A DNA stretch of 20,505 nucleotides from a virus, in IMG/VR virus record IMGVR_UViG_3300006751_003296, positions 1-20,505 of that record. The stretch is one strand, 5' to 3'. The position numbers and the translations under genes are program-made. Shown piece by piece: positions 10,263 to 17,356 of this stretch (its first letter is position 1; the number at the start of each line of letters is the position of its first letter). The notes below the pieces were generated by a model. It was not told where the DNA came from. It worked only from the letters and a program-made list of their open reading frames with translations, and searched no databases.

Positions 10263-11462
10263 ATGTTATTTCAAACATTGGACAACAAACATAAATGCAT
10301 AGGAGTATATTATGATGGAGATCTTTACTTTAATAGTGAAGTTCCTGACGGAATTAGCAAAACATGGACTTATGCTTCTTTCCTCAAAGACAAAGAACTG
10401 TCGTTCGGACATTTGCAATGCGGTGGAAAGTCTCTTGATGATGTTTGCCCCGATGTCCTAAGAGATGATTGGGAAGAGATCAATAAAAAATTAAAAGCAT
10501 ATATGAGATCCTTTTTCACATCAAAAGTATCTCTGGACGACAACTGCTTTTATGATCTGGTCCCAGAAAAATTCTTGCTTGAATTCTGTGAGATCAAAAA
10601 CAAGATTACAAAACACGTTTTTGAAAATTTTTTGCCACCTAAAAATTTGAGATTTTTGACTTTATTAACAAAAGTGGTAGAAGATATAAATCAACAAAAA
10701 CTCAATATCGATATTGATGAATTCAAGCCACATCTTGCTGAATATAAAGCGAGACAGTGGAGAAAGAAGGTTGAGAAGCTTAAACCTTATATTAGATACG
10801 ATATTTTTGGGACAAAGACGGGAAGACTGACGACAAAGAAGTATAGCTTCCCTGTTCTTACTTTTCCAAAGGCATACCGATCCATTATTAAACCAAACAA
10901 TGACTTGTTTGTTGAATTGGACTATAATGGGGCTGAATTACGAACCTTGTTGGCCCTATCGGACAAGAAGCAACCACAAATGGACATCCACGAGTGGAAT
11001 AGGCGATATTTATCGGGAAACAAGATCTTGTCGAGACAACAAATAAAAAATTCTATCTTTGCTTGGCTATATAACTCAAAAAAGCACCCAAACGAAAATA
11101 TATTAATAAAAATGTATGATAAAGACAAAGTTCTAAACGAATATTGGGATGGAGAGACAGTGAAGACCTGCTTCAACAGAGAAATACCAGCAGACAAGCA
11201 CCACGCACTAAATTATATTATTCAGAGTACCTGCGCGGATCTTATTTTACAAAAAATGATTAAAATATATGATATACTAGAAGGTAGAAAGTCAAACATT
11301 GCCTTTTGCGTGCATGACAGTATAGTTATTGATTTACACGCAGAGGACAAGTTTCTAATGAAGGATATTATAGATGAGTTTTCAAATACAAGATTTGGCA
11401 AGTTCAAGACTAGCGTTAAGACTGGAAAAGATTTCGGAAACTTAAGGGAGTTATTATCGTAA
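10263..11462 (+). CDS. Family A DNA polymerase, polymerase domain only
   Basis: This 399-residue protein carries the family A polymerase motifs in order: TGRL at 186-189; motif A as LDYNGAELR with the metal-binding Asp at 220; motif B as R258, K262, F266 and Y270 in the R-x3-K-x3-F-x3-Y spacing of Pol I; a Q/ADL helix near 317-326; and motif C as VHDS with Asp 352. All positions needed for nucleotide addition are present. Motif C has HDS in place of the usual HDE. The N-terminal 170 residues are too short for, and lack the acidic motifs of, a 3'-5' exonuclease, so proofreading must come from another gene or be absent. The start has only a weak upstream AAAAGTAG. It overlaps the next gene by one base (TAATG) and is co-transcribed with the tubulin-like gene. 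A separate 5'-3' exonuclease gene is at 16388. Confidence 0.87.
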   Translation: MLFQTLDNKHKCIGVYYDGDLYFNSEVPDGISKTWTYASFLKDKELSFGHLQCGGKSLDDVCPDVLRDDWEEINKKLKAYMRSFFTSKVSLDDNCFYDLVPEKFLLEFCEIKNKITKHVFENFLPPKNLRFLTLLTKVVEDINQQKLNIDIDEFKPHLAEYKARQWRKKVEKLKPYIRYDIFGTKTGRLTTKKYSFPVLTFPKAYRSIIKPNNDLFVELDYNGAELRTLLALSDKKQPQMDIHEWNRRYLSGNKILSRQQIKNSIFAWLYNSKKHPNENILIKMYDKDKVLNEYWDGETVKTCFNREIPADKHHALNYIIQSTCADLILQKMIKIYDILEGRKSNIAFCVHDSIVIDLHAEDKFLMKDIIDEFSNTRFGKFKTSVKTGKDFGNLRELLS

Positions 11463-12295
11463 TGGATACTGTTATTGGATTAGGATCTGCTGGCTGCAAC
11501 ATAGCTGATGAGTTTACAAAATATAGTCAATACAAGGTATATAAGATAGATTGTAATTTGAAAGGGCTTAGGCAAGACGGGATATACGATATGCCTTGGC
11601 AAGATAGTCCCGAGAGATATGAAGAAAAGTGCCCAGACATGACTAATTTCTTTAAAGATGTCTATGGGGACGTTTTATTTGTTGTCGGAGGCTCCGGAAA
11701 CATATCTGGAGCAGCCTTATCAATTCTAGAGCACATAAAACATTGCAATATTAACATATTATATATCCGACCTGACTTGGAGTCAATAAGTATAACAAAA
11801 ATGAAACAAGAATGGGTTGTGTTTAACGTGTTGCAGGAGTATGCGAGGTCTGGAGTGTTTAATAGAATTTATCTTGTCGATAACTCAAAAGTTGAAGAAA
11901 ATTTAGGCAATGTTCCAGTTATAGGATATTATGATAGGCTTAATAGTATGATTGTGTCTTCCTTGCATATGATTAACGTCTATAATCATATAGAACCAGT
12001 TGTTGATACTTATTCGAAGCCACCGGCTGGACGAAGGATTTCAACGATTGGTTTTTATGATACAGAAAATAATGAAAATAAATTATTTTATTCACTTGAC
12101 AACGTTGGAGAAATGCGCTATTATTATGCTATCAACAAAGAAAAGTTGGAAACCGATGGAGATATTTTGAAGAAAATTAGAGAGCAAATTAAAAGCGAAA
12201 CAGAAACAAGTTACGGCATATTTTCAACAAATTATGATCAAGACTATGTTTATACAGTTGCTAATTCTTCAGAAATTCAAAGGCAAAAAAAATAA
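11462..12295 (+). CDS. Divergent tubulin/FtsZ-like protein
   Basis: This 277-residue protein has the order of elements seen in tubulin/FtsZ GTPases. The N-terminus TVIGLGSAGCNIADEF matches the first nucleotide-binding loop (FtsZ has a GGGG/GGNAVN-type loop there). Residues about 73-88, DVLFVVGGSGNISGAA, match the position of the tubulin signature GGGTGTG, followed by a helix. Next comes a strand with a proline (ILYIRPDLES) then a helix and strand (RIYLVDNSKVEE), as after the signature in FtsZ. The signature is degenerate, so GTP binding is likely but GTP hydrolysis is uncertain. The protein is shorter than FtsZ (about 380) or PhuZ (about 315). It lies one base after the polymerase gene, suggesting a role tied to replication or DNA positioning. 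The superfamily call is inference from motif order, not from a search. Confidence 0.65.
   Translation: MDTVIGLGSAGCNIADEFTKYSQYKVYKIDCNLKGLRQDGIYDMPWQDSPERYEEKCPDMTNFFKDVYGDVLFVVGGSGNISGAALSILEHIKHCNINILYIRPDLESISITKMKQEWVVFNVLQEYARSGVFNRIYLVDNSKVEENLGNVPVIGYYDRLNSMIVSSLHMINVYNHIEPVVDTYSKPPAGRRISTIGFYDTENNENKLFYSLDNVGEMRYYYAINKEKLETDGDILKKIREQIKSETETSYGIFSTNYDQDYVYTVANSSEIQRQKK
12096..12124 (+). promoter_or_regulatory. Possible second promoter upstream of the gp32-like gene
   Basis: TTGACA at 12096-12101, a 17-base spacer and TATTAT at 12119-12124 (five of six to consensus) lie inside the tubulin-like gene, about 270 bases before the gp32-like start. It may act in tandem with the promoter at 12304, but it is within coding sequence and could be a chance match. 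Confidence 0.35.
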
Positions 12296-12303
12296 AAAAA
12301 CAC

Positions 12304-12332
12304 TTGACAAACAGAATTCATTGTGTTATGAT
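12304..12332 (+). promoter_or_regulatory. Strong sigma-70 promoter for the gp32-like gene
   Basis: TTGACA at 12304-12309 and TATGAT at 12327-12332 are separated by exactly 17 bases, in the intergenic space 9 bases after the tubulin-like stop. Transcription would begin near 12339, giving a leader of about 50 bases that contains the hairpin at 12341-12364. This is one of the two best promoter matches in the window. Confidence 0.8.
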
Positions 12333-12390: not shown

Positions 12391-13131
12391 ATGGGTATTG
12401 ATATGGAAAAAATGCGCGACAGGCGCACTGCACTAGAAAACAAAAACGGTAATAACCGAGAAGCTTTTTGGAAGCCACAAGATGGAGAGACAACAATTCG
12501 AATTGTCCCTACAGCTGATGGCGATCCTTTTAAGGACTTTTGGTTCCACTATAATGTTGGAAACAATCCTGGCTTCTTAAGCCCAAAGAAGAACTACGGA
12601 GAAGAAGACGCTCTAGACAGCTTTGTTAGAAAACTCTATAAAGAGGGCACAGAAGACAGCATTAAGATGGCAAAGTCTTTGTCCGCTCGTCAGCGATTCT
12701 TCGCTCCTGTGGTAGTTCGCGGAGAGGAAGATAAGGGTGTGCGTATTTGGGGCTTCGGCAAGATGGCTTATGAGAAGCTTCTTAATCTTGTTCTTAACCC
12801 TGAGTATGGCGATATTACAGATTCCGAAACTGGAACAGATCTCGTAATTCGTTATGGAAAGCCAGCGGGGGCTTCTTTCCCTCAAACGGAAATCACCCCT
12901 CGCCGCCGTCCTTCTCTACTATGTGAAGACGAAGCACAGTGTTCCGAATGGTTGGATACTATTCCAAACCTTGACGACATCTTTGAACGGAAATCTCCGG
13001 AAGATGTTGAAGTTCTTCTTGACGAATATTTGTCAGGCAACGTCGATGACGATTCTTCTGGCAACGTCGAGAAATATAATGCTGAGACTGGAGACTCAGT
13101 AGATAAAGCTTTTAGCGAGCTTCTATCGTAG
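12391..13131 (+). CDS. Single-stranded DNA-binding protein (T4 gp32-like)
   Basis: This 246-residue protein matches gp32-type single-stranded DNA-binding proteins, which coat replication and recombination intermediates and load the recombinase. The N-terminus has a short helix and FWKPQDGETTIRIVP, then HYNVG, the SARQRFFAPVVVRGEED block, IWGFGKMAYEKLL and the GTDLVIRYGKP strand, followed by a strongly acidic C-terminal tail (DEYLSGNVDDD) as expected for protein contacts. Only two cysteines occur, both near residues 173-179, and I see no counterpart of the zinc-binding Cys/His set of T4 gp32, so the core may be zinc-free. It is shorter than T4 gp32 (301). AAAGGAGAAATTA precedes ATG at 12391. 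Its own promoter and leader hairpin fit high, controlled expression. The UvsX gene lies downstream, a natural partner. Confidence 0.88.
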   Translation: MGIDMEKMRDRRTALENKNGNNREAFWKPQDGETTIRIVPTADGDPFKDFWFHYNVGNNPGFLSPKKNYGEEDALDSFVRKLYKEGTEDSIKMAKSLSARQRFFAPVVVRGEEDKGVRIWGFGKMAYEKLLNLVLNPEYGDITDSETGTDLVIRYGKPAGASFPQTEITPRRRPSLLCEDEAQCSEWLDTIPNLDDIFERKSPEDVEVLLDEYLSGNVDDDSSGNVEKYNAETGDSVDKAFSELLS

Positions 13132-13207: not shown

Positions 13208-13669
13208 ATGGCTAAAAAAACAAAAAACAAGAAAGTTAAGGTTGGTCAGACAGTAGAATTACATTATGTCGGCACTCTCGACGATGGAACTGAATTCGAC
13301 AGTTCTAGAACCCGCGAAGAAACTATCTCTGTTGAAGTTGGCTCAGGTCAGCTGATCACAGGCTTTGACAGTGCTTTAACAGGCATGAAGTTGGGAGAAG
13401 TGAAGAATATCAAGCTAAGTCCAGAGGAGGCGTATGGGGATGTGAATCCGGAAGCTTACGAAACAGTACCTCTCACTTCGTTTCCAGAGAACTTTGAACC
13501 AGTCGTAGGCGGAATGGTCCAAGGAGTAAGTCCAGCTGGTCAGCCGGTCGTAGCAAAAATCGATTCAATTGATGATGAGAACGTCAGTCTCAATTTTAAT
13601 CATCCTCTAGCTGGACAAACGCTAAATTTCGAAATTGAACTCGTGAGTATCCAAGAGGGAGAAGAATAG
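13208..13669 (+). CDS. FKBP-type peptidyl-prolyl isomerase, SlyD-like
   Basis: This 153-residue protein has the SlyD arrangement: an FKBP half with VELHYVGTLDDGTEFDSS and GSGQLITGFDSALTGMKLGE, followed by PEEAYGDVNPEAYETVP, then an inserted chaperone-like flap (residues about 82-125), and the closing NHPLAGQTLNFEIELV strand that completes the FKBP fold. Such proteins turn Xaa-Pro bonds and assist folding in the cytoplasm. The histidine-rich metal-binding tail of E. coli SlyD is absent, and the first 11 residues are lysine-rich. There is no signal peptide. It begins an accessory group between gp32 and uvsX. AAAGGA lies upstream of ATG at 13208. Phage-encoded FKBPs are uncommon; the gene was probably acquired from a bacterium and may assist folding of a virion or replication protein. 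Confidence 0.9.
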   Translation: MAKKTKNKKVKVGQTVELHYVGTLDDGTEFDSSRTREETISVEVGSGQLITGFDSALTGMKLGEVKNIKLSPEEAYGDVNPEAYETVPLTSFPENFEPVVGGMVQGVSPAGQPVVAKIDSIDDENVSLNFNHPLAGQTLNFEIELVSIQEGEE

Positions 13670-14653: not shown

Positions 14654-15823
14654 ATGGCGAGAAAAGCGAAAAATAAAGCAGGTAAACTTTCTATGTCGGA
14701 TATGCGTAGCCTTATTAATAAAAAGGCTGGTATGTCTGTCGCACACGATTTAACTAATAGTAACCCAACAGAGGTGAAGGATTGGATTCCAACCGGATCC
14801 CGATGGCTGGATTCTATTGTTAGTCGCGGAAAGCTCACCGGTATTCCAATAGGAAAGGTTGTTGAAATCGCTGGCTTAGAAGCAACAGGGAAGTCATATA
14901 TGGCTGCTCAGGTTGCCGCCAATGCTCAGAAGATGGGTATTGACGTAATCTATTTTGATTCTGAATCAGCGATTGATCCGACGTTCCTAGAAAGAACCGG
15001 ATGTGACCTAGAAAACTTGCTTTATATTCAGGCCCAGAGCGTTGAGTTCGTGCTTGAAACAATCGAAGATCTTCTCGCTAATAATGATAATCGTATGCTC
15101 TTTATTTGGGACAGCCTTGCTCTGACCCCATCCGTTAGTGATGTCGAAGGCGACTTCAACCCTCTCTCTTCGATGGCCGTAAAGGCCCGAATACTTGCCA
15201 AGGGAATGTCTAAACTAACCGTTCCAATTGCGAACAGTCAGTCTACATTCCTTGTTCTTAATCAACTTAAGACAAACATCACTAGAAGCCCCTCTGAGGC
15301 GATGGTTGAACCTTATATGACTCCCGGTGGAAAAGCCATGATCTATGCGTACTCTCTCCGTATTTGGCTCACAGGAAGAAAATCAAAGGCCAGCTATGTT
15401 CTCGATGAAAGAGGATTTAGGGTGGGGTCAGAGGTCAAGGCAACTCTTAAAAAGAGTCGCTTTGGCACCCAAGGAAGACAAGCAAGTTTTAAAATCTTAT
15501 GGGGAGAGGAAATCGGTGTTCAGGATGAAGAGAGTTGGTTCGAAGCAATCAAAGGTTCAGAACACCTTAAACAGAGCGGAGCGTGGTATACGCTACTCTA
15601 CAAAGATGGTACAGAAGAAAAGTTTCAGCCATCAAAATGGAAAAATATGTTGACAAATGAGAAGTTTCGTGATAGAGTGTTAGATATAATGGATGAAGAG
15701 GTCATCCTTAAATTTGATAAACGACAAGGCGAAGCAGCAGATTTTTATGACATTGAAAGCGAAAATATCGAAGAAAACTCGCGGCTATCTGTCGTTGGCG
15801 AAGAGGATGGCACAACAGAGTGA
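14654..15823 (+). CDS. uvsX: UvsX/RecA-type recombinase
   Basis: This 389-residue protein is a RecA-superfamily recombinase of the phage UvsX type, which forms filaments on single-stranded DNA and pairs it with duplex DNA during recombination-dependent replication and repair. Walker A is GLEATGKS at 74-81, the catalytic Glu lies in YFDSES near residue 104, and Walker B is MLFIWDS at 148-154. Further RecA-like parts are FLVLNQLKTNI and the TPGGKAMIYAYSLRIWL strand-helix (DNA-binding and filament region). The C-terminus is acidic. The length agrees with T4 UvsX (391). It starts 12 bases after the second lipoprotein with AGGAT as a weak ribosome site. Its last 77 bases also encode the N-terminus of the deaminase. 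It presumably acts with the gp32-like protein at 12391. Confidence 0.93.
   Translation: MARKAKNKAGKLSMSDMRSLINKKAGMSVAHDLTNSNPTEVKDWIPTGSRWLDSIVSRGKLTGIPIGKVVEIAGLEATGKSYMAAQVAANAQKMGIDVIYFDSESAIDPTFLERTGCDLENLLYIQAQSVEFVLETIEDLLANNDNRMLFIWDSLALTPSVSDVEGDFNPLSSMAVKARILAKGMSKLTVPIANSQSTFLVLNQLKTNITRSPSEAMVEPYMTPGGKAMIYAYSLRIWLTGRKSKASYVLDERGFRVGSEVKATLKKSRFGTQGRQASFKILWGEEIGVQDEESWFEAIKGSEHLKQSGAWYTLLYKDGTEEKFQPSKWKNMLTNEKFRDRVLDIMDEEVILKFDKRQGEAADFYDIESENIEENSRLSVVGEEDGTTE
15650..15678 (+). promoter_or_regulatory. Possible internal promoter within uvsX
   Basis: TTGACA at 15650-15655 with a 17-base spacer and TAGAGT at 15673-15678 (four of six) lies in the 3' part of uvsX, about 70 bases before the deaminase start at 15747. 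It could drive the deaminase, small protein and exonuclease separately. The weak -10 makes this uncertain. Confidence 0.3.
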
Positions 15824-16163: not shown

Positions 16164-16391
16164 ATGAGAGAGAAGTTACTTGCCAAGTTTAAAAAGAAGT
16201 ATCCATATGCTAGATTTAAATTTGTGTTTCTTCATATAAGTGAAGATCTAACAATAGAAACATTGAAAATTAATGAACAAAGATTAGATACAGCTTGGAG
16301 TCCTCCGATAGATAAATTAAAAGATCCGGATTATATGAAAATTGTTGGTAAAATTTGTTCTGACGGAGCTAAAGGAATATTAGGAATATGA
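16164..16391 (+). CDS. Small basic protein of unknown function
   Basis: This 75-residue protein starts 9 bases after the deaminase stop, with GAGGGATTTAA as ribosome site, and overlaps the exonuclease start by ATGA. It is basic at its N-terminus (REKLLAKFKKKYPYARFKF), then contains a short strand/helix and a region with WSPPIDKLKDPDY. No known motif is evident. Tight coupling with the exonuclease suggests a DNA-metabolism accessory role, which is inference from position only. Confidence 0.65.
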   Translation: MREKLLAKFKKKYPYARFKFVFLHISEDLTIETLKINEQRLDTAWSPPIDKLKDPDYMKIVGKICSDGAKGILGI

Positions 16392-17356
16392 GTAAAAGAG
16401 TATTAATAATTGATGCCCTCAACATTTATTTGAGAGCATATATATCTAACCCTTCAATCGCATTGAATGGTGAGCCCATCGGCGGAGCATTTGGATTTCT
16501 AAAATCACTTCAAAAATATTGTAGAGAGATGAAGCCAGATCACATTGTCGTTTGTTGGGACGGTCCTGATGGAAGTAGAAAAAGAAAGACAATGCACAAG
16601 GGCTATAAAGCCGGGCGCAAGCCCATTCGCCTTAATCGTAATGTCCGAGTAATGTCTGAGGAAGAAGAATTTAGAAACAAAGTATGGCAACAACAAAGGT
16701 TAATAACATATCTTAACTGTCTCCCAGTTTCTCAGATTATGATTGAACAAATAGAAGCAGACGACATTATTAGTTATGTTGCGCAAATGCCCCATTTCAA
16801 GGATGCTCAAAAAGTTATTATCTCTAGTGATAAGGACTTTTATCAACTTTGCGACGATAAAACGGTGGTATATAGACCCGTCCAAAATCAGTTCATAAAC
16901 GCCAGTAGGCTAGTTGAGATGTTCGGAATACACCCCAGCAACTTCGCCCTCGCAAGGGCCATTTGCGGCGATAAGAGCGACAATCTAGACGGAGTTGGGG
17001 GAGCGGGCTTAAAGACCGTTGCTAAGCGGTTTCCGTTCCTCTCAGAGGCTAATCCGCATGAGATCCAGACGCTCTTCGAAGCTTGCGAATCAGTGGAAAA
17101 GCCATTAAAAGTTCATCATAATATTTTGAGTGGAGAGAAAAAGATACAGAGAAATTACAAGATGATGCAGTTGTATACCCCTCTTGTTTCAGTGCAAGCG
17201 AGCCAAAAGATCAAATACGCGATTCATGAAATGACACCAGAGTTGAATAAGACTCAATGTATTGGGTTGATGATTGAAGATGGAATTGGTGCATATGATT
17301 GGTCAGAAATGTTTGCAACAATGAAAAGAATTTGCTTGACAACAAACGATAAATGA
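16388..17356 (+). CDS. 5'-3' exonuclease, FEN/T4 RNase H-like
   Basis: This 322-residue protein is a flap endonuclease-type 5' nuclease, the activity that removes RNA primers and flaps on the lagging strand. Metal-binding acids are visible in their usual order: D9 (LIIDALN), D58 (VVCWDG), E123/D125/D126 (IEADDII), D148/D150 (SSDKDF) and D195/D198 (CGDKSDN), followed by the glycine-rich DNA-binding segment DGVGGAGLKT. The length matches T4 RNase H (305). In this genome it may provide what the polymerase at 10263 lacks in Pol I-type organisation, because that polymerase has no 5' nuclease domain. The 5' end overlaps the small gene by ATGA, and the 3' end contains the -35 of the next promoter. 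Confidence 0.92.
   Translation: MSKRVLIIDALNIYLRAYISNPSIALNGEPIGGAFGFLKSLQKYCREMKPDHIVVCWDGPDGSRKRKTMHKGYKAGRKPIRLNRNVRVMSEEEEFRNKVWQQQRLITYLNCLPVSQIMIEQIEADDIISYVAQMPHFKDAQKVIISSDKDFYQLCDDKTVVYRPVQNQFINASRLVEMFGIHPSNFALARAICGDKSDNLDGVGGAGLKTVAKRFPFLSEANPHEIQTLFEACESVEKPLKVHHNILSGEKKIQRNYKMMQLYTPLVSVQASQKIKYAIHEMTPELNKTQCIGLMIEDGIGAYDWSEMFATMKRICLTTNDK

Follow-up and report, generated by a model that had tools for sequence, protein, structure and literature searches.

Results

Organisation of the replication module

The window, that is, the whole 20,505-nucleotide stretch of virus record IMGVR_UViG_3300006751_003296 that was analysed, carries on its plus strand a replication module in the order polA, tubulin-like gene (hereafter A-type), SSB, uvsX and 5'-3' exonuclease. 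The first of these genes (10263-11462) encodes a family-A DNA polymerase of 399 amino acids (Pfam DNA_pol_A, 7.4e-14) with motif A ELDYNGAELR, motif B RQQIKNSIFAWLY and motif C HDS in place of the usual HDE, and in an alignment of 20 relatives the catalytic aspartates D220 and D352 as well as R258 and K262 are invariant. No 3'-5' exonuclease domain was detected in the window polymerase by Pfam. Relatives of this polymerase form a large uncultured group. The A-type gene follows at 11462-12295 and encodes a short, divergent protein of 277 amino acids, assigned to the tubulin/FtsZ fold by AlphaFold2, Foldseek, VIA and its conserved family; its ATG has one base in common with the TAA of the polymerase gene (junction CGTAATGG), so that both the position and the overlap are as described in the initial annotation. 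Downstream are a gp32-like single-strand DNA-binding protein (12391-13131; phrog_1192, 2.2e-23), a RecA/UvsX-type recombinase (14654-15823; Pfam RecA, 6e-34) and a 5'-3' exonuclease of the flap endonuclease type (16388-17356; Pfam 5_3_exonuc_N, 5.2e-29), all on the plus strand.

A sigma-70-like promoter match (TTGACA-17-TATGAT, 11 of 12 consensus positions) lies between the A-type and SSB genes at 12304-12332 on the plus strand and is treated as a lead only, given that the total of such matches in the region is near the shuffled mean. The module also includes an FKBP-type peptidyl-prolyl isomerase (13208-13669; 5.4e-23) that many relatives retain, and the segment 17393-18971 includes an N6/N4 DNA methyltransferase (3.7e-45) and, ahead of it and overlapping it, an ORF of 205 aa that matches no family, the two possibly forming a restriction-modification pair. 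The description of the virus as a T4-like phage holds for its tail genes (sheath, 1.3e-8; T4_baseplate, 2.1e-15) and not for its polymerase, which is of family A rather than the T4 family B.

The A-type gene belongs to a conserved viral family

Measured against six relatives that share 67-85% of their amino acids with it, the A-type gene has a pN of 0.07-0.18 against a pS of 0.66-0.80, which identifies its frame as that of a conserved protein gene, and at unsaturated dS the dN/dS is about 0.05 (at most 0.06), indicating strong purifying selection. A scan with the single sequence recovered 54 relatives from IMG/VR, and a profile scan found at least 587 stretches of viral contigs that encode related proteins. 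Together with the many stop codons on the opposite strand and the contrast between pN and pS, these related stretches argue that the ORF did not arise by chance.

Queries with three different members found no relative in 50,697 phage records, ten Klebsiella phage matches being dismissed as noise at E-values of 4-7, and the window protein as a single query had no sequence match in Pfam, PHROG or PDB. No description of the family was found in literature searches. The single match in a genome collection is a scaffold of a WOR-3 metagenome-assembled genome (CP070664.1), which carries the phage module; because runs of N join this scaffold, it was set aside as host evidence and is probably a binned phage fragment.

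The A-type gene is locked to the polymerase gene

Starting from the tubulin-like gene, 114 of 124 loci also include the polymerase gene, which is upstream in all 114. The two genes overlap or touch in 68 of these pairs and are more than 200 bp apart in 41, the gap being mostly around 300 bp and usually containing a MazG-like ORF. This ORF recurs at a length of about 100 aa (YNKLVRDKIPEI...; for example L026:3639-3950) and by eye resembles a MazG-type nucleotide pyrophosphohydrolase, with no match in Pfam. Starting from the polymerase instead, the A-type gene is found downstream in 79 of 80 loci, and the last one stops at the contig edge; thus, all 79 informative loci have it, in spite of an intervening MazG-like gene or a 2.4-kb insertion, and we regard it as a core gene of the replication module. 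In some genomes (L401:4818-7193, likewise L395, L402 and L405) the interval between polA and the A-type gene encodes a conserved protein that has about 790 aa and no match in Pfam. The coupling to the polymerase is tighter than could be gathered from the window by itself.

Within the module, the A-type gene diverges faster than its neighbours, as exemplified by locus L009 with identities of 81% for polA, 61% for the A-type protein and 88% for SSB. This faster evolution could reflect a host-facing role.

In a sister branch with a polymerase of 23-29% identity, an equivalent module lacks the A-type gene and has a protein of 165-195 aa in its slot. Among the genomes of this branch (L293:5295-6134 and equivalents in G028 and G026), the position between polA and SSB is taken in some by a 3'-5' exonuclease of the DnaQ type (RNase_T, 3e-17), which fits a slot for polymerase accessories, and in another by an HD-domain-like protein. 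The nearest cultured module, that of Flavobacterium phage immuto (Immutovirus), is collinear, with PolA (24% identical), two small genes, SSB, RecA, 5'-3' exonuclease and DnaB; its two small genes (456 and 516 bp) leave no room for the A-type tubulin, which is absent there. The A-type protein is thus not universally required by such polymerases, since the modules of the sister branch and Immutovirus do without it, and the strict linkage taken together with the content of these slots defines a core but lineage-specific gene at a polymerase-accessory position.

The A-type protein is predicted to adopt a complete tubulin/FtsZ fold

An AlphaFold2 model based on an alignment of 33 relatives was obtained with a pLDDT of 92.6 and a pTM of 0.91. 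Foldseek against the PDB placed FtsZ, TubZ and CetZ on top (1.8e-12 to 4e-12; FtsZ 4m8i at 1.8e-12), and VIA-align covered 255-274 residues, the best match being archaeal CetZ (PDB 3zid, 4b45; Z 24.2, rmsd 3.0 Å, 255 residues, identity at most 18%), with TubZ of Bacillus plasmids and phage c-st (PDB 4ei7, 2xka) at Z 22.9 over 274 residues. The model includes the C-terminal tubulin domain and shows the full two-domain fold with its connecting helix H7.

Profile comparison is in agreement with the structural matches and supports a shared origin at the sequence level. With 119 A-type sequences, hhalign against a combined profile of FtsZ and of a second tubulin found in related phages (B-type, described below) gave an E-value of 4.9e-4, and the T1 and T4 loops, the S6 asparagine and the H7 asparagine all fell into the expected register. 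The match was weak against FtsZ alone (P 0.014) or the B-type alone (P 0.03-0.06), neither E. coli FtsZ nor phiKZ PhuZ gave a valid match as a single target, and the alignment to the latter was confined to a 61-column chance segment.

The initial annotation had proposed the tubulin/FtsZ relationship and named a different fold, or a confident Rossmann match, as what would overturn it; the structure model and the fold searches spoke for the proposal. A nucleotide- or NAD(P)-binding protein of Rossmann type, with a GxGxxG loop and no kinship to tubulins, might seem to be suggested by weak Pfam matches of some members to the TrkA_N and saccharopine dehydrogenase domains (E about 0.01-0.03), and by the Pfam Tubulin model, which three of 33 members match at E about 0.04 and none above its cut-off. 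We consider this reading very improbable, as the tubulin/FtsZ fold extends over the whole length with Z above 20, includes the C-terminal domain and is matched by the B-type and FtsZ profile; in a viral structure library, FtsZ/tubulin-like proteins rank first at the level of 1e-12, and Rossmann enzymes reach about 1e-3. Judged by its modelled fold, the protein almost certainly belongs to the tubulin/FtsZ superfamily, within which it is a new family.

The nucleotide face is retained and T7-H8 is missing

Conservation was assessed in an alignment of 119 sequences. The GxxGxN loop noted earlier near the N-terminus was found as GSAGCN within IGLGSAGCNIAD and forms part of a T1-like nucleotide loop, residues 6-15 (GLGSAGCNIA; 11477-11506), in which G6, G8 and G11 are conserved at 96% and C12 at 94%; further along, D30 is conserved at 90%. 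The reported signature GGSGNISGAA is present at residues 76-85, and its residues 76-84 (11687-11713) are aligned by hhalign to the T4 loop; G77 (94%), G79 (89%) and S82 (86%) are conserved and the remaining positions vary. The T and most G positions of the PF00091 signature GGGTG(S/T)G are therefore unconserved in the A-type family. Two asparagines, N141 where strand S6 ends (11882-11884) and N161 early in helix H7 (11942-11944), are each 95% conserved and fall in the hhalign register on the asparagine pair through which FtsZ and tubulin contact guanine. On this alignment, the A-type protein is predicted to bind a guanine nucleotide, GDP or GTP.

Further conserved positions are particular to the family. 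These are the end of helix H5, residues 125-130 (QEYARS; 11834-11851), with Q125, R129 and S130 at 100%, and lower helix H7, residues 169-173 (HMINV; 11966-11980), with H169 and M170 at 100% and N172 at 96%; L86 and Y258 are likewise invariant, and E54 is conserved at 99%. In the tubulin fold, the connections that run from helix to strand are on the side away from the nucleotide face, and because of this topology the clusters at 125-130 and 169-172 are probably near the site that T7-H8 would occupy.

At that site, the T7 loop and helix H8 of FtsZ and TubZ are replaced by a loop, residues 177-192 (11990-12037, plus strand), which has no helix in the AlphaFold2 model and no conserved acidic position among the 119 sequences. 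A B-type model made identically does have H8, at residues 250-257. Within a protofilament, T7-H8 of one subunit activates the GTP of its neighbour, and the A-type protein would at most resemble a tubulin minus the activating half of the interface. The doubt previously raised about GTP hydrolysis is thus borne out, mainly through the missing T7-H8 and less through the T4 loop, which alone cannot exclude GTPase activity because the T4 loop of phiKZ PhuZ (GGASGST) also deviates. Lacking the T4 signature and T7-H8, the protein was not classed as FtsZ, TubZ, PhuZ or a PF00091 GTPase.

A second tubulin occurs in related phages

A scan of whole records of relatives with the Pfam Tubulin model turned up a second tubulin gene in the record G002 (103386-104480). 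This B-type gene, also found at L125:1027-2121 on the minus strand, lies outside the window and encodes an undescribed phage tubulin resembling TubZ and CetZ, with structural Z-scores of 32.4 for TubZ and 32.0 for CetZ2. Members of the family (L129-L208) have about 345-410 aa, a canonical AGGGGGTGSA, DxxD in T7 and a conserved N-terminal DDFDFV motif. At least 107 relatives were found, in records of up to 281 kb, and a search for relatives in cultured phages found none.

Six of the 19 large records with an A-type gene have a B-type gene as well. In G002 the B-type gene separates a sigma gp55-like gene from a 94-aa gene; in three other A-type records of 158-172 kb (G003, G005, G007) these two genes adjoin directly, identifying the B-type gene as an optional insertion. 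Its absence at this site in the three records means that it cannot be an obligate partner of the A-type protein, and that pairing was rejected. No divergent second tubulin was detected in them by motif and profile either; a weak match in G007 was recognised by eye as a 2-hydroxyacid dehydrogenase-like protein.

Discussion

Known phage tubulins form spindle or partition filaments and come from few cultured phages. Of the characterised systems, CetZ shares with the A-type protein the arrangement of T1, S6 and H7, but the latter is viral, shorter, degenerate in T4 and without T7-H8. TubZ is a tubulin of mobile elements that handles DNA, has the partners TubR and tubC, and possesses T7-H8 and a C-terminal tail; the A-type gene has polA and SSB as its neighbours at almost every locus, not tubR/tubC. 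PhuZ of the phiKZ-like jumbo phages is likewise a phage-encoded tubulin with a non-canonical T4 loop. However, in PhuZ the T7 loop supplies a catalytic acid and T7/H8/S9 make a canonical protofilament contact (PMC3678025), neither of which is found in the A-type protein, and the phiKZ PhuZ gene, as annotated, has no adjoining polymerase gene. FtsZl1, a cellular protein, is similar in being a superfamily member without recognisable elements for canonical filaments, but its GGGTG(S/T)G loop is intact and it is joined to a coiled coil (PMC2875224; Makarova and Koonin 2010), whereas the viral A-type protein has a degenerate T4 loop.

A cytomotive tubulin of the PhuZ or TubZ kind, which would position, cluster or segregate replicating phage DNA by means of a polymer with an altered interface, might be expected from the two-domain fold that matches TubZ and CetZ over almost the full length, from the conserved residues of the nucleotide face, from the location in a replication module and from the likewise non-canonical T4 loop of phiKZ PhuZ. 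We nevertheless consider it rather unlikely. T7-H8 is part of the canonical protofilament contact, also in phiKZ TubZ (PMC3678025), and its place is taken in the A-type protein by a loop without conserved acid; the long C-terminal tail is absent in most members; and PhuZ is dispensable, being non-essential and missing from a clade that makes up 24% of chimalliviruses (PMC11724907), whereas the A-type gene is never absent beside its polymerase. The DNA-centring role suggested earlier by analogy with PhuZ finds no support in this analysis.

A kept nucleotide face combined with the loss of T7-H8 on the opposite face is also how a capping protein would be expected to look. Such a one-sided mimic, capping or poisoning filaments either of host FtsZ, so that division is blocked while the phage replicates, or of the B-type tubulin encoded by the phage itself, would in addition be in line with the fast evolution of the A-type protein relative to its neighbours and with the coexistence of both tubulins in some of the large records. 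We regard such a mimic as improbable, to a similar degree as the cytomotive role. The B-type gene is absent at its own site in three records that carry the A-type gene, and genes for host takeover, which tend to be optional, would not be expected beside a polymerase gene at every one of 79 informative loci.

Here we propose that the A-type protein is a non-canonical, guanine-nucleotide-binding member of the tubulin fold that serves as an accessory or scaffold of the phage family-A polymerase, a reading to which we give about an even chance. A short, divergent tubulin-fold protein would have become the dedicated partner of this polymerase and might bind guanine nucleotide as a ligand with a structural or a switching role. 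It would make no ordinary treadmilling head-to-tail protofilaments, since the T7 acid is unavailable for a neighbour, and may instead act in the replisome by binding, tethering or regulating the 399-aa polymerase, perhaps in contact with it through the family-specific residues Q125, R129, S130, H169 and M170. Gene linkage and conservation, from which joint action with the polymerase is inferred, fall short of physical contact between the two proteins, and such contact is therefore a prediction. In twelve large A-type records, neither the T4 clamp family PF02916 nor the exonuclease families PF00929 and PF01612 were matched above the cut-off, which is consistent with an accessory role but is weak evidence, given the strong divergence of phage clamps and the possibility that parts of the records are missing. 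In a stronger form, which we put forward tentatively as the less probable version, the A-type protein could be an obligate polymerase subunit that has given up polymerisation and, sensing nucleotide, serves in processivity, in tethering or as a substitute for proofreading.

The A-type gene provides a large group of uncultured, bacteria-infecting phages with a tubulin-fold protein as a core gene locked to the polymerase gene, and it names a part for a module slot that is held by unknown genes in cultured relatives. Together, these observations suggest that a cytoskeletal protein has been converted into a component of the DNA-copying machinery. If the A-type protein is indeed a replisome subunit, this would mean that the tubulin fold is not confined to the cytoskeleton, and the A-type protein and its polymerase would offer a simple two-protein system in which this could be tested.
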